In this document: positions 23,554 to 33,787 of the stretch, one piece after another
Layout: each line of letters starts with the position of its first letter
How positions within the stretch are numbered: the stretch's first letter is position 1
Assembly: GCA_024653355.1 (NCBI GenBank)
Contig: JANLFQ010000001.1
Location: 682,001 to 746,000, forward strand
Origin: a candidate division WOR-3 bacterium
Lineage (GTDB): Bacteria > Hydrothermota > Tepidihabitantia > Tepidihabitantales > Tepidihabitantaceae
Direction: 5' to 3'
DNA length: 64,000 nucleotides
Notes under the pieces: generated by a model
Told to the model about the DNA's origin: nothing
Seen by the model: the letters and a program-made list of their open reading frames with translations, nothing else
Database searches by the model: none
Made by a program: the position numbers and the translations under genes

Positions 23554-26478
23554 TCATCGGCAGTAACCGGCACTGCCGATGATGGTCACGGTCCCGGAAT
23601 CGTAATTGGCAACATACACTTTGCCGTCCGTGGAGTTGGTGCACAGGGCAATCGGCCGCTGGCCGACGGGAATTGTTTTCCGTACCGAATTAGTAGCGCA
23701 ATCAATCATATTGACCGTTTCTCCATCGTAGTTAGCACAGTAAAGTTTATCGACCCAACCAGCCCAAGCCAGACTCCGGGGATGAGTACCGACATTCACC
23801 GTCGTTACCAGAGAGTAATTCTGGGCATTGATGACAGAAACATTATTACTACCGGAGTTGGCAACATAGATGCGGTTGTCAACCGCATTGTAAGCAAGCG
23901 CCCAAGGTTCGCTGCCGACATTTATCGTCGTAATCACCGCCTGATTGTTACCGTTGATGACGCTTACTTTGCCGAAAAGTCGATTGGCAACTGTAACATT
24001 GCCCCGGGCATCGACCACCAGCGCACAGGGCTGATAATCAACGCTAACCGTACCGAGCACCTGATTGGTCGCACCGTCAATGACCGTTACACTGTTGCGC
24101 GCAAAGTTAGCGCAGTACACCTTGTTGTACACCGGGTTATAGACCAGCGCAATCGGGCTGGAATCAACCGCTATCGTCGTGATTATTTCATTAGTAGCAC
24201 CATCAATTACCGTCACCTGGGCATTGCGATAGTTTGCGACATAGACGCGATTGTTTGTTGTATTAAAACACAACGCTTGGGGGAAACTGCCAACATTGAC
24301 TGTCGTAAGCACCTGGTTCGTTGCACCATCAATTACCGAAACTGTCCCCCCGCCATAATTACTTACATAAATCCGGCCATTCGTTGGGTTAAGACACAGG
24401 TCATATGGGTTAGCACCAACCGAAATCGTTGCCGTAACCTCGTTGCGTGAACCATCAATAACCGAAACATTACCGCTGTTGTAATTAGCAACGAAAATCT
24501 TGTTATGCAAACTGTCCCAAAGCAGCGCCCGGGGTTTGGAGCCAACCGTGACCGTTGCCACTACCGTATCGGGTGTCCCACCGGTACCTGCAACGGTAAA
24601 TGTTCCGCTTGTTCCTTCGCTTGTATGATTACCACAGAATGCCCGAACCCTGATTAGCGCATTGTTGGTTGTTGGCGGCGGTACTTGCCAGACAAAACTA
24701 CCCGGCACTGTGGTCTTCCCTTGCCGCGACCAGTCCGTGCCGCCGTTACTGGAGTAGAAAATCACCGTTGACTCCATCCCAAAGGTGCCTCCGGTCCAGG
24801 TAATGGTCTGTGTCGAACCAACGGTCCACCGCGCCCCGGGAGCAGGTGAAGTCACGGTAATCGGTGTGGGCGGCAATGAGTCGTAAACAACATAGCGCTG
24901 GCTCGTCCCCACCGAAGAGTCTGCCCCAACATAAGCCCGGACCTGAACCCGGGCGTTATCGGTCGCAGGACCGGGAACGAACCAGGAGTAACTGCCTGAA
25001 CTGGTTGCCCGGCCGTGACGAAGCCAGGTAACACCGTCATCGGTGGAGTAATAAATTGTAGTTGAGTCGGGCGCTGCCGGACCACCAACCCAGGTGATGG
25101 TTTGATTGGAGCCTTCGCGCCATCGTGTTTGTGAGTTCGGTTCGGTAATTGTTATTGCTGGCAGACCTTCAATCACCCGAAAAGTAGCACTGAATCCGGT
25201 TGTAACCGAATCAAGACAGTAGGCGCGAACCCTGATCTTTGCCTGGTCTGTTACTGGTGCCGGCACGGTCCATAAAAATCTTCCGGGACGGGTTGTCTTG
25301 CCCTGTCGTGTCCAAACAAGGCCATTGTTGGTTGAATAGTGAATAACCGCTGAATCCATCCCGAGTAAAGTACCACCGGTCCAGATAACCTCGTGGGTTG
25401 AACCGATGGTCCATTCCGACAGCGAATCGGGCGCAACGATTGTAATCGCTGAAGGCTTTCTCGTATCGTAAACCTCAAACTGTGCCGATGTTCCAAGCAA
25501 AGTGTCCCGGCCGATATAACGGCGCACCTGAATCCGGGCGCTGTTGGTTGGTGTCAGGTTAATCGGCAACGTCCAGGTATAACTATTGGGAGAGGTTGCT
25601 CGGTCAATACGCGTGGGCCAGGTAACACCGTTATTACTTGAATAGAAAAGCACCGTTGAGTCTCCTAACAATCCACCAGTCCATCTAATCGTATAACTTG
25701 TCCCGCTACGCCATCTCGATGTATCGTTTGGTTCCACCACTCTCAATGCCGAACAGACTGAAAACTGCCATAATGGGCCAACCACCGTATCACCAACTTC
25801 ATCGCGGGCAACCACATACCAGTAGTATGTTGAGTCGTACATCAAACCAGGCGGGCTGCAAAAAGTGTCTGAGAGATTGCGAAAAACAATCGCTAAAGGC
25901 AGGCGCGTGCCGAGATAAACATCATAAACTACTGTATCACCTAAATCCGGGTCTCCGCCCCGCCAGGAAAGGCGGACTCTTGGCAGTTGATTGATTGCAC
26001 CACTTTCGGGCTGGGGACGATTAGGTACAAAAGGCAAAGTGTTTGCCCGCTTGGTTGTAAACTGATAGACTGGACCCCAGGCGGTATCACCAAACCGGTC
26101 CCGGGCTAAAATTCGCCAGTAGTAAGATGTAAGAATTGCGAGATTATGGGGACGGTAGAATGTGTCTTTAATCCCGGTATCGCGCAATGCCGGCGGGTTT
26201 CCCGTTCCCAGATAGATGTCGTATCTTAACCTTTCACTGGTATCCGGGTGGGTGCACCGCCAGTGTAAAGTTATTCCGGTGTCAACATTTACCGCGCCAC
26301 TCTCCGGCACAATCGGCACCGGTCGATTGGGCGGTTTGTCAAACGGATTTGCCCACTTTCGACAGGTACTGTTCCCCAACAGTACAACGATAGCCATGAA
26401 CGCCAGTAGTGCGACTGCGCCCCAGCGCACCAACCTTCTTTTCGCCCGTTCTGCCACTCTTGTATCGCCTTCTTTCAT
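23554..26478 (-). CDS. Large surface protein: FnIII-like, Kre9/KNH-like and YVTN beta-propeller repeats
   Basis: 974 residues. A short basic N-terminus and one hydrophobic segment (WGAVALLAFMAIVVLLGNST) act as signal or anchor; the Cys after it (NSTC) does not match a normal lipobox. Then two FnIII-like domains (about 48-245, ending ...YYWRILARDRFGDTAWGPVY), four about 95-residue Kre9/KNH-like domains (about 246-630; core G-S-x-TITWTGG...STVIFYSSNGG...VRVRA), and eight YVTN blades of about 42 residues (about 636-970; core NRVYVANYRNAQVTVIDGAT). This is the last gene of the minus-strand locus starting at 33749, 1 bp after the PEGA gene. Probably a cell-surface adhesin or recognition protein. 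No Por sorting domain is visible. Confidence 0.85.
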   Translation of the reverse strand: MKEGDTRVAERAKRRLVRWGAVALLAFMAIVVLLGNSTCRKWANPFDKPPNRPVPIVPESGAVNVDTGITLHWRCTHPDTSERLRYDIYLGTGNPPALRDTGIKDTFYRPHNLAILTSYYWRILARDRFGDTAWGPVYQFTTKRANTLPFVPNRPQPESGAINQLPRVRLSWRGGDPDLGDTVVYDVYLGTRLPLAIVFRNLSDTFCSPPGLMYDSTYYWYVVARDEVGDTVVGPLWQFSVCSALRVVEPNDTSRWRSGTSYTIRWTGGLLGDSTVLFYSSNNGVTWPTRIDRATSPNSYTWTLPINLTPTNSARIQVRRYIGRDTLLGTSAQFEVYDTRKPSAITIVAPDSLSEWTIGSTHEVIWTGGTLLGMDSAVIHYSTNNGLVWTRQGKTTRPGRFLWTVPAPVTDQAKIRVRAYCLDSVTTGFSATFRVIEGLPAITITEPNSQTRWREGSNQTITWVGGPAAPDSTTIYYSTDDGVTWLRHGRATSSGSYSWFVPGPATDNARVQVRAYVGADSSVGTSQRYVVYDSLPPTPITVTSPAPGARWTVGSTQTITWTGGTFGMESTVIFYSSNGGTDWSRQGKTTVPGSFVWQVPPPTTNNALIRVRAFCGNHTSEGTSGTFTVAGTGGTPDTVVATVTVGSKPRALLWDSLHNKIFVANYNSGNVSVIDGSRNEVTATISVGANPYDLCLNPTNGRIYVSNYGGGTVSVIDGATNQVLTTVNVGSFPQALCFNTTNNRVYVANYRNAQVTVIDGATNEIITTIAVDSSPIALVYNPVYNKVYCANFARNSVTVIDGATNQVLGTVSVDYQPCALVVDARGNVTVANRLFGKVSVINGNNQAVITTINVGSEPWALAYNAVDNRIYVANSGSNNVSVINAQNYSLVTTVNVGTHPRSLAWAGWVDKLYCANYDGETVNMIDCATNSVRKTIPVGQRPIALCTNSTDGKVYVANYDSGTVTIIGSAGYCR
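23560..24572 (-). repeat. Eight YVTN-blade coding repeats (about 126-bp period)
   Basis: Each unit encodes x-VYVANYxSGxVSVIDGATNxVxxTxxVGxxPxAL with strong base-level similarity, for example repeated VIDGATN codons. The recurrence also creates a long spurious open frame on the opposite strand. Confidence 0.8.
24585..25750 (-). repeat. Four Kre9/KNH-like coding repeats (about 285-bp period)
   Basis: Each unit encodes an I-T-x-x-x-P ... W-x-x-G-S-x-x-x-I-x-WTGG ... YYSxxxGxxWxRxGxxTxPGxFxWxVPxPxTxxAxIRVRA ... SGTF pattern. The repeats are diverged and ordered head to tail. Confidence 0.75.
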
Positions 26479-26479
26479 A

Positions 26480-27532
26480 TCACCACTTAACTACAAAATA
26501 CATACCAATGCCCAGCGAACCAACTCCCAGCGCAACATTGCGAATCATATCCCAGCGCTCAGTTTCCTGGCGGTAATTGACCGCATCTTCCTTTGTCGCC
26601 GCATTTTGATAAAGTCCATAACTTTGCTCCCCCATTATAGCGGCACCGGCACCTCCAGCAAGAAAGGCGATGCTAGCAATTAACACCGGCAACTGTCGTC
26701 GCGGTAAACGCTGCAGTGTCTCCCGAACATAGGTCGTCTCGCCCATCTTTACCTCGGCATAGCCCAGCCAGTCAACATACCCTTGCTTTGAACACAGCAC
26801 CGCATACCGGTCTGGTGCCAATCCAATCAGCAAATTACTTACCCCAATCTTTCTACCGTTGGCAAAAACCTCGGCACCGGTCGGCTTTGTTTCCACGCTG
26901 AGAAACCCCCGGCCCTTTCCCATCTTCACCAGAACTCCAATCGGGCCGCTGCTGCTGACCTCAACTAATTTTGTTGCATCTTCATAACCGGAATAGCGGG
27001 CTAAAATCGATCGGGAACCAAAAGGTACCTTCGAAACAACCAGCCCGGTCTCGGTTGTCCTGCCCTTGTAAACCCCATCAATCCATATCTCGGCACCAAC
27101 CGGGTCGGAAGTAATCACCAGTGTTGCCAATCGGGCGGTGATATTAAAACTCCCGTAATATGTTCGATATCCAGAATAACGGGCCTCAACCGTATGTTTA
27201 CCCACACTCAAATTGTCGATTTCTAATGGGGTCGTGCCCCGCTCCACATCATCGACTCTTACCGTTGCCCCGGAAGGTTGAGAAGTTATCCGGACACTAT
27301 TGCCGGTAACATCAATATCTACTCGGAGCGCAGGCAAAGATGGCCTGTATTCAGGCTCGGGCAACTTCGCACCACACTTTTTGCAGAACTTGGCGTCGTC
27401 TCGATTAACCGTTCCGCAATTCGGACAGACCTTCTCCGCCCAGGCAATGGTGCACAAAAAAATCAAAGTCAATATCAATACGGTCACGGCATGCCGGGAA
27501 CCAACTCGTCTGTTCCTTCGCCTCTCACTCAT
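26480..27532 (-). CDS. Exported PEGA-repeat protein with N-terminal zinc ribbon
   Basis: 350 residues. A signal peptide or anchor (HAVTVLILTLIFLCTIAWA) is followed at once by a CxxC...CxxC zinc ribbon (VCPNCGTVNRDDAKFCKKCG). Three PEGA repeats follow (about 75-140, 140-205, 208-275; for example VRITSQPSGATVRVDDVERG and LVITSDPVGAEIWIDGVYKG). Two hydrophobic segments lie near the C-terminus (LPVLIASIAFLAGGAGAAIM; VALGVGSLGIGMYFVV). Ribosome site AAGGAGGA precedes ATG 27532, 10 nt after the kinase gene. PEGA proteins often partner with Ser/Thr kinases. A zinc ribbon directly after an export signal is unusual, and its partner gene also ends in one. Confidence 0.82.
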   Translation of the reverse strand: MSERRRNRRVGSRHAVTVLILTLIFLCTIAWAEKVCPNCGTVNRDDAKFCKKCGAKLPEPEYRPSLPALRVDIDVTGNSVRITSQPSGATVRVDDVERGTTPLEIDNLSVGKHTVEARYSGYRTYYGSFNITARLATLVITSDPVGAEIWIDGVYKGRTTETGLVVSKVPFGSRSILARYSGYEDATKLVEVSSSGPIGVLVKMGKGRGFLSVETKPTGAEVFANGRKIGVSNLLIGLAPDRYAVLCSKQGYVDWLGYAEVKMGETTYVRETLQRLPRRQLPVLIASIAFLAGGAGAAIMGEQSYGLYQNAATKEDAVNYRQETERWDMIRNVALGVGSLGIGMYFVVKW

Positions 27533-27542
27533 TCAATCCTCC

Positions 27543-28808
27543 TTAATCTTCAAACCGGTAACCGCACCGGGTGCAAAATTGCGCGCCGGGTTCGCGCTTT
27601 GCTCCACACGCAGGACAGGTAGCCCGGCCCGCTGCCACTTTCAACTTCACACCGGTATGGGGTTTTAACTTTGCTCCGGCTCGGGGTTCAATCCCAATCA
27701 CCACCCCGGTGCGATACTGGTCACTGTACTCCCGCACCACAACCACACTGTCCAATCCTATCTTGAGCAATTGATTGCGTGCAACCGCTTCGGCAACACC
27801 AGTTACATCCGGTATTGAAACCAGCCCGGTGCTCAACCGTAGCTTTACCACCCCACCCTTTTTCATCTTGGTACCAGCAGATGGAATCTGCTCTGCCACC
27901 TTACCCAGCGCAAATGTGTCGTCTTTATCTTCAGCCAGTTCTACCCGAAAACCGGCATCCTCGAGCTTCTTCTGCGCCTCTGCCTGATAAACACCCTGCA
28001 CATCGGGAATCGGTTTTCCCTGACCGCCGATTATTAGCCAGCTACCTACCGCGACCAAAATCAACCCCGCCAGGACAATCCATACTAATGGACCGCGTCC
28101 TCTTTCCCGCGGCAGCGGTACGGCGGCAACAGGAGGTGCCGCTTTCGGCGGTGAAACGGGACGCGCCGTGGACATGACCGACTTGGACACCGCAGCCGCA
28201 GGAGTTGACTCGGTTTGTCGAGGAGGCTGCGTCATCTTAATTGGTTCCGGGCGTGGCTGTTCCGAAGTAATTGGTGCCGGTTTTTTTTCTAACTCTTTAG
28301 GAATTACCGCCAGCAGGGCGGCACGAAAATCCTTCGCAGTTTGAAACCGCTCCTCAGGTTTTTTCGCCAATGCCTTCAGGATAACCTTTTCCAACTCCGG
28401 TGTGATTTCCGGCCGAATGGAACGAGGGGCAGGCGGCGGTTGTTCGATGTGCGCCCGAATCAAATCCGCTCCCAGTTCTGCCTCAAAAGGTGGCTTTCCA
28501 GTTGCCGCTTCGTAGAGAACCACACCCAACGAATAAAGGTCCGCCCGAGCATCAACACTCTTGCGCTGTGCTTTTTCCGGAGCGATGTACCGAGCGGTTC
28601 CGACCCGGGATACACCATAATCAATCAACCGCCACACCCCGTCTTCAACCTGAACGATTTTTTTGGGTTTAATGTCACCGTGCAGTCGGCCCTGGCTGTG
28701 GGCATGCGCCAGGTCGTCAAGAATAGAAACGAAAATATTTTCCAGCTCCGGGCTCGGAACCACCCGTCGTTCCGCAAGCAAATCAGCGAGTGTTTGCGCT
28801 CGCGCCAT
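27543..28808 (-). CDS. PASTA-domain Ser/Thr kinase-like protein lacking the N-lobe (probable pseudokinase)
   Basis: 421 residues. The chain starts at what is normally the kinase hinge (MARAQTLADLLAERR), so the Gly-rich loop, ATP-anchoring Lys and helix C are absent. The C-lobe remains: catalytic loop HGDIKPKKIV (43-52; Asp kept, the Asn that binds Mg replaced by Lys), DYG instead of DFG (63-65), a very short activation loop, APE (76-78), and helices F-I. A Pro-rich linker leads to a membrane helix (241-260), two PASTA domains (265-327, 329-394) and a zinc ribbon (Cys398, 401, 412, 415) predicted outside the cell. Its own promoter gives an RNA start within 3 nt of ATG 28808, so the start is firm. 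Likely a signalling scaffold or sensor, not an active kinase. Confidence 0.85.
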   Translation of the reverse strand: MARAQTLADLLAERRVVPSPELENIFVSILDDLAHAHSQGRLHGDIKPKKIVQVEDGVWRLIDYGVSRVGTARYIAPEKAQRKSVDARADLYSLGVVLYEAATGKPPFEAELGADLIRAHIEQPPPAPRSIRPEITPELEKVILKALAKKPEERFQTAKDFRAALLAVIPKELEKKPAPITSEQPRPEPIKMTQPPRQTESTPAAAVSKSVMSTARPVSPPKAAPPVAAVPLPRERGRGPLVWIVLAGLILVAVGSWLIIGGQGKPIPDVQGVYQAEAQKKLEDAGFRVELAEDKDDTFALGKVAEQIPSAGTKMKKGGVVKLRLSTGLVSIPDVTGVAEAVARNQLLKIGLDSVVVVREYSDQYRTGVVIGIEPRAGAKLKPHTGVKLKVAAGRATCPACGAKREPGAQFCTRCGYRFED

Positions 28809-28817
28809 CTTAATAAC

Positions 28818-28845
28818 AGGATAACAACAACTTAAGTAATGTCAA
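28818..28845 (-). promoter_or_regulatory. Internal promoter of the PASTA pseudokinase gene (leaderless type)
   Basis: Minus strand TTGACA (28840-28845), 16 bp spacer, TATCCT (28818-28823), then 9 nt to ATG 28808. The predicted RNA start is about 28811. There is no Shine-Dalgarno sequence. It lies in the 55-bp gap after the TPR gene. Confidence 0.6.
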
Positions 28846-28863: not shown

Positions 28864-30531
28864 TTACCGCACTGCGCCGGGAGCAAAATCCGTAGTTGCT
28901 TTCCGAAGCAAATTGCGCCCCAGTGACGCATAAGGTGAACCGGGAAATTCCATAATGAGTCGCTCGATAGTTGCCCGAAATCGACTTTCATCTTTCAAAC
29001 CCTGGCGGTAAATTTCTGCCTGCTCAAGGAGCGCCCGCGCTGCCCGTTCCCCTTTGGGAAATCGGACAAGCAAAGAGTCGAGAACTGTTAGCGCCGCGCG
29101 GTAGTTTCCTTCCTGGCGATAAATCTGTGATACAAGAAAGAAAGCATCCTGTGCCACCGCGTCGTTTCCCCGCATCAACCCCTGTGCCTGTTTTAGGCTT
29201 ATCTCGACCGCACCAGCATCAAGGTCAAGCATCGCCCGGGCAAGTTCTAAACCCCGCTCGCCACTCAATGTAAGCATCCCCAGTTCCAGGGCATCATTCG
29301 CCAGCAAACTTTGCGGAAATCGAGCGTTAATCTCCCTGACGATTGCCCGTACCGAGTCAAACTTACCTTGATAAAAAAGTATCTTTGCCTGCAGAAACAG
29401 TACACTGTCATCAGGCGCAGTGATTTTTCTTAGCACCTGCTGGGCGCTGTCCAGTTGCCGCAAACCGACGAGCGCTGCGGCGAGTCCTAAAAGCGCCGCT
29501 CGATAATCGGGCTTTTTCTTCAAGACAGCGCGATATCCTTGAACCGCACTTTTAAAATCCCTCTTTTCCAACCGGGCGTACTCGGCGTATTCAAACCGCG
29601 CCGCAACACTGGTGTCTTGAGATAGAAGTGCCAGCGCCTCATCAATCCTACCCATCTTTCGCAGGACTCTTGCGGCATCGGCACCCAACTTCTGCTCCTG
29701 GTAAATCGCCAGTGCGGCACGCAACGCCCCTCTCTTTTCGCATCCCCGGGCAAAATTAACCATTTCACCACGGTTCAAACTGTTCTGGATTATTCGCACC
29801 GCACCCAGCTCATCGCCCGCACCAAGCGCAACCTCCGCCTGCGCCCTTAATCGAATCGTCTCGTCTTTGATTTTACTTAAAACATTCAGCACCCTTTTAA
29901 CCTCACCACTCCTTCCATAACTACCCAGCCGGTCAACAAATTTATTAAACCTTCGCGGCTCATAATTGACAATATCAACCAACTTTTCTGCCGCCGTAAC
30001 AAACCTGCCTTGCATTTCATATATTTCCAATAACTTCTCGGTGTACTCAACTCTAAACCCATCGCGCCGCAATCGCTCTTCAAGATACTGCGCCGCCCAC
30101 CCCTTTTCACCACCCCGCAGGATTGCTTCCACCAGTTCCATAACCCGTCCGGGCCATTTCTCGAAAAATCTCTGCGCCCGCTCCCGCGCCGCACTCTTCC
30201 TTTTTAAGCCCAGAAGTGCCTCAATTATTCCCAATGTCACTTCTGCGTTATCGGGCACAACCCCTTCTACTTTCTGTAAAATTGAAAGCAGGGAGTCAAA
30301 TCTGCCCAGCTGGCGGCTTACCCGCACCACACCCAGAAGCGCCTGCCGGTCCTCGGGATTTTTCTCCAGTGTCGTTTTGTAAACCGTCCATGCCTGCTCC
30401 AACTGCCCCGCCTGTTCCAGCATTTGACCCTTAAACCCATCCTGTGCAAACAACGGTGCTGAGAAAAGAATTAACGGCAAAAAAAGAACGACTCCTGCCG
30501 CCCCACGCCTTGTCTTCCGGTTCTGCCTCAT
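28864..30531 (-). CDS. Periplasmic TPR-repeat protein
   Basis: 555 residues. A basic N-terminus and signal peptide (GVVLFLPLILFSAPLFA, cut near AQD) precede TPR-type helical hairpins along the whole chain (GQLEQAWTVYKTTLEKNPED, RFDSLLSILQKVEGVVPDNA, AVQGYRAVLKKKPDYRAALL, GNYRAALTVLDSLLVRFPKG). Probably a periplasmic scaffold. The start ATG 30531 overlaps the stop of the upstream coiled-coil gene by 4 bp and has GGAGGAGCG before it, so the two are translationally coupled. The same pairing of a DUF4175-like protein with a TPR protein is known in FCB bacteria, as I recall, but I cannot verify this here. Confidence 0.82.
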   Translation of the reverse strand: MRQNRKTRRGAAGVVLFLPLILFSAPLFAQDGFKGQMLEQAGQLEQAWTVYKTTLEKNPEDRQALLGVVRVSRQLGRFDSLLSILQKVEGVVPDNAEVTLGIIEALLGLKRKSAARERAQRFFEKWPGRVMELVEAILRGGEKGWAAQYLEERLRRDGFRVEYTEKLLEIYEMQGRFVTAAEKLVDIVNYEPRRFNKFVDRLGSYGRSGEVKRVLNVLSKIKDETIRLRAQAEVALGAGDELGAVRIIQNSLNRGEMVNFARGCEKRGALRAALAIYQEQKLGADAARVLRKMGRIDEALALLSQDTSVAARFEYAEYARLEKRDFKSAVQGYRAVLKKKPDYRAALLGLAAALVGLRQLDSAQQVLRKITAPDDSVLFLQAKILFYQGKFDSVRAIVREINARFPQSLLANDALELGMLTLSGERGLELARAMLDLDAGAVEISLKQAQGLMRGNDAVAQDAFFLVSQIYRQEGNYRAALTVLDSLLVRFPKGERAARALLEQAEIYRQGLKDESRFRATIERLIMEFPGSPYASLGRNLLRKATTDFAPGAVR

Positions 30532-33500
30532 CGCTCCTCCAGCAGTTTCTCAAAATAGGAACGGATCAAAAGTTCATACTCCCCTGGATAACCCTGCTTT
30601 AACGCCCGCAACAACTCCTCGCGCAAGACCTGATTGCGTTCGCCAAAATCTTCGGGCAGTTCCGGCCTTACCTCAATCCGATAACCCTTTCCGGTCTCGG
30701 CTTGCCGCTCCTCCTTAAAACCCTCCTGGCGCAAACTCCGCTGGGCATCAAGCAAGCGGGAAAGAATTCCCTCCTGCCGTTCAATCAACTTTCGGTCAAT
30801 CTGCAGTTCGGACAACGCCCGTTCCACCGCCTTCATCTCCTCAACAAGCTGGTCCAGTCTGCCGGTTAAGCCGGGTCTTTGCCCGCCCATTGACTGTAAC
30901 AACCTCTCCAGTTGCTCGCGTAACGCCGCCTGCTGCGCGAGCAGTCTTTGCAACTGCTCCATCTGGCTGGCGCTCAAACCGGAAACCGGAATCGGTATCG
31001 GTATACCGGACATTCCGGCATTAATCGCCATTTGCTCCGAAGTCATCTGGGAAAGTTGTTCCAGTAGACTTTGCAATCCGCTCTTCATTCCCCCACCCTG
31101 CGCCGCTGCGGCGGCGGCATCCAGCACCATTGCAACCGCCCGATTCAAACTCATCCGTGCCTGGGTCATCGCCCCCTTACTGTCACCAAAGTTACCCAGT
31201 GCCAGCATTTCGGCGGCACTCTTCATCTGGTTCATCGCTCGCGCAAGTTGCTGCCCCATCTCGGGTGAAACCAGCAGGGTTTGGGCACCAAGTGCCCCAA
31301 TACTCTCCGCCACCAACCGCGTTGCCTCAAGCAATCCCATCTCCTCCGGGGCAAGATAAGCGGGATTTGTTTTCTCCCCAATTTCTTTTTCCAGCCCCTC
31401 CTGGGCTTGCGACACCCGCAACAGCGCATCAGCACCAGCGATTAGCCGGCGCATCACCTCCTCAGAACGACGGCGTTTTAACTCCTCGCTCAACCGGTCA
31501 AGACGCTCCGCCAGTTCCTGAAAAGAACGCTGCAGTTGCTCGCTCTTCTGTTGCGCGCTCCGCCGCTCGCCCTGAGCAAGTTGTCGCTTTAGCTCTTGCG
31601 CCAGCCGGTCCAGCCCCTCCTGCTCAATCTGCTTCTGCAGCGACCCAAGCGACTCCGCAACCGCCGGCTCAGCCAGTTCAACTGCCAGTTTTTCAAGTTC
31701 GGCGCGCAAACTGTCAAACTCGGCATTGGTTCTTGCCTGCTTCTCTGCCAGCTCCTCAGAAGCGCCCTTTTTTAGCTCTCGGCTCACTTCCTCCTGAGCC
31801 TTTTGCAACTCTTTTGCCTGCCGCGCCAGCGCTTCAAGCCGTTCCTCCTCCATTATGCGCTTTAACATCTCCAGGGCGCGCTCAATACCCGCCTTCAATT
31901 TCTCCTGCTCCAGTTGAACTTGTTCCAGCACCGGCCGGACATCGGGCGATTTTTCACCCAGTTTTTTCGCCAGTTGTTCCAGCGCCTTTTGCAGTTCAGG
32001 AGGCAAAAGGCGCGTTAGCAAATCCTGCAACTGCCCCAGCCGCTCCAGTGTCTCTTGGTCATAACTCATACCCTTGACCATCTCTTCAATCGTTCGCGCA
32101 ATCTCCTCTTTCAAACCCTCAACCTGACTGAGAATTTGCTTTTGCTCCTCCAGGAGCCCTTCAAGCCGCTTCTTCTCCTCCCAGGACAGCTCGCGTGATT
32201 TTTTCAATTCCTCACCAATCCGGCTCAACTGAGCACCAATCTCTTCCTGCCTGGCGCCCAGTGGTGCCAGTTCCTCTTGAGTTGTCTGGGTTTTTTCCAC
32301 TGCTGACGAATAAATTTCACTCATCGTCGGAAACCGCACCGCAAACACTTCACTCCTTGTTATCTTGGGACCTGAAACGATATCGTTATCGGTTACCTGA
32401 AGATAGTAGCGCAAAGCCTCGCCGGGTAAAAGCCCGGCTGAAGACAGGTCCCAGACATAAAAAGTGGTGTCTTCCCTTTGATGGGAAAATTTTTTCAGCC
32501 GTACGACCTCGTGGATACTGTCCTTGCCGTAGTGGAGTGATAAATCGCCCAGACCATAATCGTCAATACTGTTCACCCCTAAAAGAACCTGCATGCTCAC
32601 CGGCAGGTCAACATCCCGCCCTGGTGTAAACACCTTCACAAATGGCGCTTCATCAACCATCAACCGCAACCTGACCCGGGCTACTGTCTGAATTGCACCC
32701 CCCGCCGGTGCCAGCTCCAGCGCCATCTCGCCCTCGTTCCGCACCGTAAAACGGGCTCGAAAGTGGGTGGGCTTTTGCGCATCAACAGCAACCGCCACCG
32801 TCTCGGACCGCAGAACCAGCCTTCCCCTCTCAACCGGTTGACTTGCCTCAGCATCAAGCGTCACCTGCGTTCCCTTCAGTAGGAGTAACTCATCTCCCTT
32901 TATCTCGCTCGCCTGTAGATTGGCATACGAGGGCGGCTGACATTGAAAGACCATTCGGCGCAGGGTTAAGGGTTCAATAAGCCCAACCCGAAACCAGCCC
33001 GAACTTTGGTTCAGAACCCGAAATCGGTAACTCATTCCCTGCTGAACGGCAAACTGTGCCCTAACGCTATCTCCCTTCATTACCATAAACCGATGCTTCC
33101 CATCCTGTTCTTTTATCTCCATCTTCACGCGGCGGAAAATACCGGCGGGCTGCACCCGGCAGGAAAAGGTCACAACATCACCGCTCACCACCACGGTATC
33201 ACCGGGCTCAACCGCAAACACCACCTTTAATCGATGCGGGAAAAATGCGTTCTGCAATCCGATATCAGCCCTCGCGCCGCCTATCGAAATAAACCCCAGA
33301 AGTAAACCCCATCCCAATAACGCAACCATGCCACAGAGGAAAACCCTCTTTCCACAAGAGACTCCCCGCAGGCGTTGCCCGCTTAACAACTGCTCAACCT
33401 GTGACACTGCAGCATCTCTCAACTCCCGCGAGTACCCCTCAACACCCTCCTGATAGCGCGCCAGTTCTAAACCGGCAAAAAGCCTTCCCCGCAACTGTGG

Positions 33501-33749
33501 ATTAACACGCTCCATCTTGTAGGCAACCGCCTTAACACCAACCTCACTAACCCAGACCGGGACAAAATAAATCAGCGGCACCAAAAACAAAAGAACCACC
33601 CAGCCCGAAAGGAAAAAGGCGGTGCAGAAAAAAGCCCCGAGGGCAAATAGCCCGATGGTTAAAAGCAAAACCGACACCAAAAAGTTAACAAACACCATCC
33701 GTTGAACGCGGCTTATTGCCATCTCAAGAAGAGTCGTCGTGCGTTTCAT
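30528..33749 (-). CDS. DUF4175-like membrane protein with very long coiled coil
   Basis: 1073 residues. Two membrane helices near the N-terminus (about 20-70) and one near 140-165 (LCGMVALLGWGLLLGFISI) precede beta-rich Ig-like extracytoplasmic sequence (about 175-480, including YYLQVTDNDIVSGPKITRSE). From about 490 to 1000 the chain is Glu/Leu/Gln/Arg-rich coiled coil (RLEGLLEEQKQILSQVEGLK and similar), broken by a Gly/Pro/Met-rich patch (about 890-940), and it ends in a short globular tail (YRIEVRPELPEDFGERNQVL). The frame is open from TTG 33776, but the promoter puts the RNA start near 33752, so ATG 33749 is the start. It is the first gene of the locus and probably forms an envelope-spanning rod or scaffold. 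Confidence 0.75.
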   Translation of the reverse strand: MKRTTTLLEMAISRVQRMVFVNFLVSVLLLTIGLFALGAFFCTAFFLSGWVVLLFLVPLIYFVPVWVSEVGVKAVAYKMERVNPQLRGRLFAGLELARYQEGVEGYSRELRDAAVSQVEQLLSGQRLRGVSCGKRVFLCGMVALLGWGLLLGFISIGGARADIGLQNAFFPHRLKVVFAVEPGDTVVVSGDVVTFSCRVQPAGIFRRVKMEIKEQDGKHRFMVMKGDSVRAQFAVQQGMSYRFRVLNQSSGWFRVGLIEPLTLRRMVFQCQPPSYANLQASEIKGDELLLLKGTQVTLDAEASQPVERGRLVLRSETVAVAVDAQKPTHFRARFTVRNEGEMALELAPAGGAIQTVARVRLRLMVDEAPFVKVFTPGRDVDLPVSMQVLLGVNSIDDYGLGDLSLHYGKDSIHEVVRLKKFSHQREDTTFYVWDLSSAGLLPGEALRYYLQVTDNDIVSGPKITRSEVFAVRFPTMSEIYSSAVEKTQTTQEELAPLGARQEEIGAQLSRIGEELKKSRELSWEEKKRLEGLLEEQKQILSQVEGLKEEIARTIEEMVKGMSYDQETLERLGQLQDLLTRLLPPELQKALEQLAKKLGEKSPDVRPVLEQVQLEQEKLKAGIERALEMLKRIMEEERLEALARQAKELQKAQEEVSRELKKGASEELAEKQARTNAEFDSLRAELEKLAVELAEPAVAESLGSLQKQIEQEGLDRLAQELKRQLAQGERRSAQQKSEQLQRSFQELAERLDRLSEELKRRRSEEVMRRLIAGADALLRVSQAQEGLEKEIGEKTNPAYLAPEEMGLLEATRLVAESIGALGAQTLLVSPEMGQQLARAMNQMKSAAEMLALGNFGDSKGAMTQARMSLNRAVAMVLDAAAAAAQGGGMKSGLQSLLEQLSQMTSEQMAINAGMSGIPIPIPVSGLSASQMEQLQRLLAQQAALREQLERLLQSMGGQRPGLTGRLDQLVEEMKAVERALSELQIDRKLIERQEGILSRLLDAQRSLRQEGFKEERQAETGKGYRIEVRPELPEDFGERNQVLREELLRALKQGYPGEYELLIRSYFEKLLEER

Positions 33750-33758
33750 AAAACCCAA

Positions 33759-33787
33759 CTTAAATAGTAGCCCCAAACCTCTGACAA
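33759..33787 (-). promoter_or_regulatory. Promoter of the coiled-coil/pseudokinase locus (leaderless type)
   Basis: Minus strand TTGTCA (33782-33787), 17 bp spacer, TTTAAG (33759-33764; 4 of 6 matches), 9 nt to ATG 33749. The weak -10 lowers confidence. Confidence 0.4.

Follow-up and report, generated by a model that had tools for sequence, protein, structure and literature searches.

A PASTA pseudokinase that keeps only the kinase C-lobe, conserved within one family of candidate division WOR-3 bacteria

Can a membrane receptor built like a PASTA kinase dispense with the kinase N-lobe and still be maintained, and what might the C-lobe that remains be for? The question is raised by an open reading frame on the minus strand (27543..28808, 421 aa) of the window, a 64,000-nucleotide stretch of a candidate division WOR-3 genome. 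The original prediction described its product as a membrane helix, two PASTA domains and a kinase C-lobe, beginning at the hinge, and Pfam, the NCBIfam profile NF033483, an AlphaFold model and a fit to PknB all bear this description out. From its N-terminus, with all features on the minus strand, the protein consists of a kinase C-lobe without N-lobe, spanning alphaD to alphaI (residues 1-170, 28299..28808, delimited by AlphaFold and the PknB fit), a Pro-rich disordered linker (residues 171-240, 28089..28298, pLDDT about 45-56), a transmembrane helix (residues 242-260, 28029..28085; 241-261 in the model), two PASTA domains (about residues 267-394, 27627..28010; Pfam PF03793 in two stretches, 83 bits) and a C-terminal Cys4 zinc ribbon (residues 397-419, 27552..27620). 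The ribbon, the family-wide occurrence of the truncated form, its conserved gene cassette and its single origin were absent from the original prediction.

The kinase-related portion of the protein follows the PknB pattern from the hinge onwards. The Pfam Pkinase match begins at profile position 81 of 263, and the PASTA kinase profile PknB_PASTA_kin (NF033483) gives one continuous match over profile positions 92-500 of 563, scoring 246.4 bits, which is below its curated cut-off of 450. PknB is also the closest solved relative by sequence, and on its closest structure entries the C-lobe model superposes over PknB residues 94-279 with an rmsd of 0.9-1.6 Å (Z 28-29.5), such that residue 1 of the model corresponds to PknB residue 94. 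The structure comparison that the original prediction had proposed thus returns a C-lobe only. Helices alphaD to alphaI, the catalytic-loop geometry and the residues of the APE-Arg bridge are all present; with pLDDT mostly 93-98 over residues 11-170, a free-standing C-lobe fold is predicted with high confidence, and the PASTA domains are likewise modelled as well folded. The zinc ribbon matches Zn_Ribbon_1 (PF13240) with 27.8 bits, above the curated cut-off of 25, in a CxxC...CxxC pattern whose cysteines (398, 401, 412 and 415) are invariant in the orthologue alignment; zinc binding by this ribbon is putative. The positive-inside rule (3-7 Lys/Arg before the membrane helix versus 1-4 after it) places the N-terminal side of the helix inside, so that the C-lobe is predicted to be cytoplasmic and the PASTA domains and zinc ribbon extracytoplasmic.

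Neither this protein nor any of its orthologues contains a Gly-rich loop, a beta3 Lys or a helix C, and, judged from the sequence, the N-lobe is truly absent. The preceding open reading frame ends at 28864, leaving the 55-bp gap that had been pointed out and no room upstream for an N-lobe. In-frame stops lie 11 codons 5' of the ATG in G000 and G001 and one codon 5' of it in G006 and G010, which together with the intergenic gap rules out a mis-called start. The N-terminal extras found in the g3 and g6 genomes do not resemble an N-lobe. The predicted sigma70-like promoter (28818..28845, minus strand) also holds up in comparison with orthologues: its -35 box TTGACA (28840-28845), 16-bp spacer and -10 box TATCCT (28818-28823) end 9 nt before the ATG, and a TTGAC(A/G/T)-15 to 17-TANNNT element or near match recurs 6-20 nt 5' of the start, usually without a Shine-Dalgarno sequence, in 11 of 14 orthologues. 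Shuffling the sequences one at a time gives p-values of about 0.00-0.03 in ten of these eleven and of 0.115 in G011, and support for the promoter therefore rests on its recurrence. No such box was seen near the start in the three g3 genomes; in G015 a candidate read by eye (TTGCAC-16-TACAAT) lies about 80 nt upstream. RNA synthesis is predicted to begin 2-3 nt 5' of the ATG, which would give a near-leaderless mRNA.

Orthologues of the gene occur in 14 of the 18 genomes of the same WOR-3 family, covering all 7 genera, and all of them begin at the same site or with an unrelated extension while keeping the residues of the PknB C-lobe fold. No orthologue with an intact N-lobe fused in frame was found among these 14, which come from separate genomes and assemblies, and their next-nearest relatives elsewhere are intact; the claim that the missing N-lobe is genuine has therefore gained support from the very homologues that could have overturned it. 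Among the four remaining family genomes, G009 holds only the 3' end of the gene, at a contig edge, the end of a contig in G014 falls inside the TPR gene immediately upstream of the expected site, and the gene was not found in G013 and G017. Outside the family, no N-lobe-less form turned up when 147 of the phylum's genomes were searched, and the only other strong match there (G063) is an intact kinase. We compared 80 related loci, 77 of them from outside the WOR-3 family, and these 77 have 89 aa or more preceding the hinge, a Gly-rich loop recognisable by pattern in 76 (the exception being L149), HxDxKPxN in every case and DFG in all but two, which have DLG. A tree built from 63 C-lobe rows groups all 14 rows without an N-lobe in a single clade (support 100/99), and a single origin from a PknB/Stk1-type PASTA kinase through loss of the N-lobe is the best explanation. 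Derivation from one particular intact WOR-3 PASTA kinase is left unsupported, as the stem is long and the placement weak.

Loss of the N-lobe is accompanied by loss of catalytic residues, which we counted in 12 orthologues against 36 intact kinases. The catalytic loop reads HGDIKPKK (residues 43-50, 28659..28682), in which the alignment places Lys50 where the Mg-binding Asn would be; this position is Lys in six orthologues, Arg in four, His in one and Asn in one, as against Asn in 36/36 intact kinases. DFG has become xYG, with Tyr for Phe in 12/12 and the Asp position occupied by Asp in seven, Gly in two, Glu in two and Arg in one (the Asp being lost in 5/12). By alignment to PknB, the segment from DYG to APE (residues 63-78, 28575..28622) has 16 residues, ten of them between the two motifs, and lacks the activation loop together with its phospho-Thr; it is 16 residues long in 11/12 orthologues and 22 in one, compared with 26-43 in intact kinases. 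The substituted Asn, the DYG motif and the activation loop of about ten residues had all been read correctly in the original prediction. What is kept in 12/12 orthologues is the His and Asp of HRD, the APE Glu, the alphaF Asp and Arg154, which pairs with APE. The protein is, by its residues, a pseudokinase without those needed for phosphotransfer, and every orthologue has lost catalytic residues along with most of its activation loop.

The remaining lobe is nonetheless under strong purifying selection, with a dN/dS of about 0.05. Between G000 and G001 the C-lobe and the zinc ribbon each stand at 0.05, followed by the PASTA domains (0.13), the linker (0.21) and the membrane helix (0.60); the G006/G010 pair concurs in giving its lowest values to zinc ribbon and C-lobe, which are the most constrained parts of the protein. 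Positions 41 (R/Q/H/E) and 53 (Q/R) are polar in 9/12 orthologues, against hydrophobic residues in all 36 intact kinases, which is what exposure of the face that once met the N-lobe would be expected to produce; counting from the motifs, they probably lie beside HRD and on beta7, in the place that the N-lobe would occupy. Constraints specific to the family fall on R/K73 in the P+1 loop, D86, R88, A119, E/D138 and Q156, several of them on the peptide-docking side, and position 73 is Arg or Lys in 12/12 orthologues where intact kinases have mixed residues. Together these constraints and substitutions form the pattern of a C-lobe adapted to standing alone, and selection of this strength could alternatively be due to folding or stability alone.

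The gene heads a three-gene cassette whose order is C-lobe/PASTA/zinc ribbon, zinc ribbon/PEGA, then Ig/beta-propeller. The product of the second gene (26480..27532, minus strand) starts with a signal or anchor and ends in a hydrophobic helix, with a zinc ribbon and three PEGA domains in between, and the third gene (23554..26478, minus strand) encodes a membrane-anchored or exported protein with Ig-like domains and a YncE/YVTN beta-propeller; both products look exported by prediction. Within the class, the PEGA gene is found in 15 genomes, all of this WOR-3 family: the 14 with the C-lobe gene, and G009. The C-lobe gene adjoins the PEGA gene wherever the contig permits, including in G005, G007, G008, G011 and G012, where it is not seen directly behind the TPR gene (contigs end in several of these). 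That gene, encoding an exported TPR protein (28864..30531, minus strand), often but not always adjoins the cassette, and in every contig examined it follows a gene for a conserved 1082-aa membrane protein with a long coiled coil and weak similarity to DUF4175 (30528..33776, minus strand). The coiled-coil protein also occurs in another family of the order (G018). In G013 and G017 the coiled-coil and TPR genes are followed directly by what we take from its sequence to be a glutamate dehydrogenase gene, between which and the TPR gene G015 has the three cassette genes. The Ig part of the propeller gene was not found in G013 or G017, and because a cassette adjoining the TPR gene is common to several genera, its loss as a unit in these two genomes is the simpler reading; G013 is the cleaner case, since the G017 contig opens partway through a propeller gene that precedes the coiled-coil gene, and an assembly gap is possible there. 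Co-inherited genes need not encode proteins that bind each other, and pairing of the two zinc ribbons, which correspond to different halves of the Pfam double ribbon, the halves being alike, is speculation.

We consider it probable, on balance, that the protein is a non-catalytic, single-pass envelope receptor or anchor whose C-lobe serves as a docking platform for a cytoplasmic partner, and the signalling scaffold proposed in the original prediction is a plausible reading. PASTA domains are known for contact with the cell wall. The PASTA domains and zinc ribbon would lie in the periplasm, touching the wall and the zinc-ribbon PEGA protein, and the peptide-binding face of the C-lobe (the P+1 loop with its invariant Arg/Lys73, and helices F to H) would bind the cytoplasmic partner. 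The protein would thereby tie down or report the state of the envelope without phosphorylation, since the N-lobe, the Mg-binding Asn and the activation loop are gone and the DFG Asp is lost in 5/12 orthologues. A more elaborate version, which we consider less likely, is a kinase fold cut at the hinge whose rewired, basic pseudo-active site takes up a phosphorylated ligand or a partner, while a ribbon pair formed by the C-lobe/PASTA and PEGA membrane proteins carries an envelope signal; in short, and with the same reserve, a phosphorylation-free offshoot of PASTA-kinase signalling.

The alternative that survives best, though we regard it as doubtful, is that the C-lobe is an ancestral remnant serving only as a compact plug or folding anchor in the cytoplasm, that it binds nothing specific, and that all function lies outside, in the PASTA domains, the zinc ribbon and the PEGA partner. 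Such a role would fit a cassette in which no cytoplasmic partner is evident and the products of genes 2 and 3 look exported, and a PASTA-only membrane protein also exists in the same family; it is harder to reconcile with a C-lobe that, of the large domains, is the most tightly constrained (dN/dS 0.05 versus 0.13 for PASTA) and has acquired new invariant positions. The PASTA-only protein, which has three PASTA domains and no kinase, is encoded near 475000 of contig C1 of the same genome (L193:889-1659, plus strand), behind a methionyl-tRNA formyltransferase-like gene, and the same pair recurs in G010 (L192).

It is unlikely that the former active site has instead become a ligand sensor, with Lys/Arg50, Arg/Lys73 and Lys47, grouped about Asp45, serving to bind a nucleotide, a phosphopeptide or some anion. 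The basic character of position 50 (K/R/H in 11/12, against Asn in 36/36) and of position 73 speaks for such a site, as does an Asp45 that is invariant without catalytic need. However, the cleft would be open without the N-lobe, Lys47 is present in 9/12 orthologues and replaced by Ser in three, and the basic residues may merely pair with Asp45 in place of Mg.

Completion of the C-lobe in trans by the N-lobe of another protein, for which the HRD Asp kept in 12/12 orthologues might be taken as a sign, is very improbable: the metal ligands are lost, the activation loop is deleted, and a search of the protein's own genome, which is 98% complete, revealed no free N-lobe, the N-lobe profile matching only the complete 1766-aa kinase that is its one other kinase. 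That protein (L194:347-5644; C3:105846-111143) is the genome's sole complete Ser/Thr kinase, and its kinase is joined to parts that we read from its sequence as AAA, TPR, GAF, sigma54-activator and HTH-like. Neither another PASTA kinase nor any FHA or PP2C_2 domain was detected in the genome, which, with the absence of a free N-lobe, places the C-lobe protein outside the usual PASTA-kinase phospho-circuit. Decay, a mis-called start or an assembly error can be given next to no weight, for although a decaying gene would be expected to lose a lobe and catalytic residues first, the same form recurs in 14 genomes of 7 genera with upstream stops, purifying selection and a conserved promoter and operon.

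Among known systems, the PknB/Stk1-type PASTA kinases (NF033483; M. tuberculosis PknB, S. aureus Stk1, B. subtilis PrkC) share the order C-lobe, linker, membrane helix, PASTA, and the present protein differs from them in lacking N-lobe, activation loop and Mg-binding Asn, in having xYG for DFG, and in its two PASTA domains and zinc ribbon. EssB/YukC, the membrane pseudokinase of type VIIb secretion, resembles it in a dead cytoplasmic kinase fold, a single membrane pass, an outer domain and proposed docking (PMC3694306, PMC9600267), but EssB has both lobes, N-lobe included (PMC3694306), its outer domain is helical, with neither PASTA nor zinc ribbon, and it is part of a secretion system; the C-lobe gene has no N-lobe, encodes PASTA domains on the outside and has TPR, PEGA and propeller neighbours. 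The bacterial pseudokinase families ActPs1-3 (mycobacterial MviN being ActPs3), GLW, DLHK, CP1 and DYD are likewise conserved with catalysis lost, and some are membrane proteins; the sections of the review available to us discuss their ATP-site (N-lobe) residues and describe none without an N-lobe (PMC12599244), whereas the C-lobe family carries PASTA domains and a zinc ribbon and lives in WOR-3. DYD pseudokinases in particular are characterised in those sections by a beta3 Lys to Arg change, a DYD motif and an ATP pocket (PMC12599244), whereas the C-lobe protein has no beta3 strand and its motif is xYG. Our literature search, which covered few subscription journals, found no bacterial N-lobe-less kinase family, the only related remark being that of KINtaro on Pan3_PK, a Pfam pseudokinase family noted as without N-lobe (PMC10870513); Pan3_PK is eukaryotic and from an unrelated setting, and the remark may refer to where the Pfam model begins and ends, not to the protein.

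The prevailing view of a protein kinase is of a machine with two lobes, and explanations of pseudokinases mostly look to what persists between them. A clade in which the N-lobe has been discarded and the C-lobe selected is a natural test of what the C-lobe offers alone, namely docking and not catalysis, and would provide a PASTA receptor that does without phosphorylation, from a genome with no detected FHA or PP2C_2 domain. As a small soluble domain, the C-lobe is also suited to partner fishing.

Intact kinases occur elsewhere in the WOR-3 family. In several (L197, L198, L199, L201 and L202), as read from their sequences, the membrane helix is followed by two PEGA-like repeats, a link between PEGA and kinase receptors in the WOR-3 lineage. 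At a further locus (L196), two intact PASTA kinases lie side by side in G005, one of them with a C-terminus like that of formylglycine-generating enzyme.
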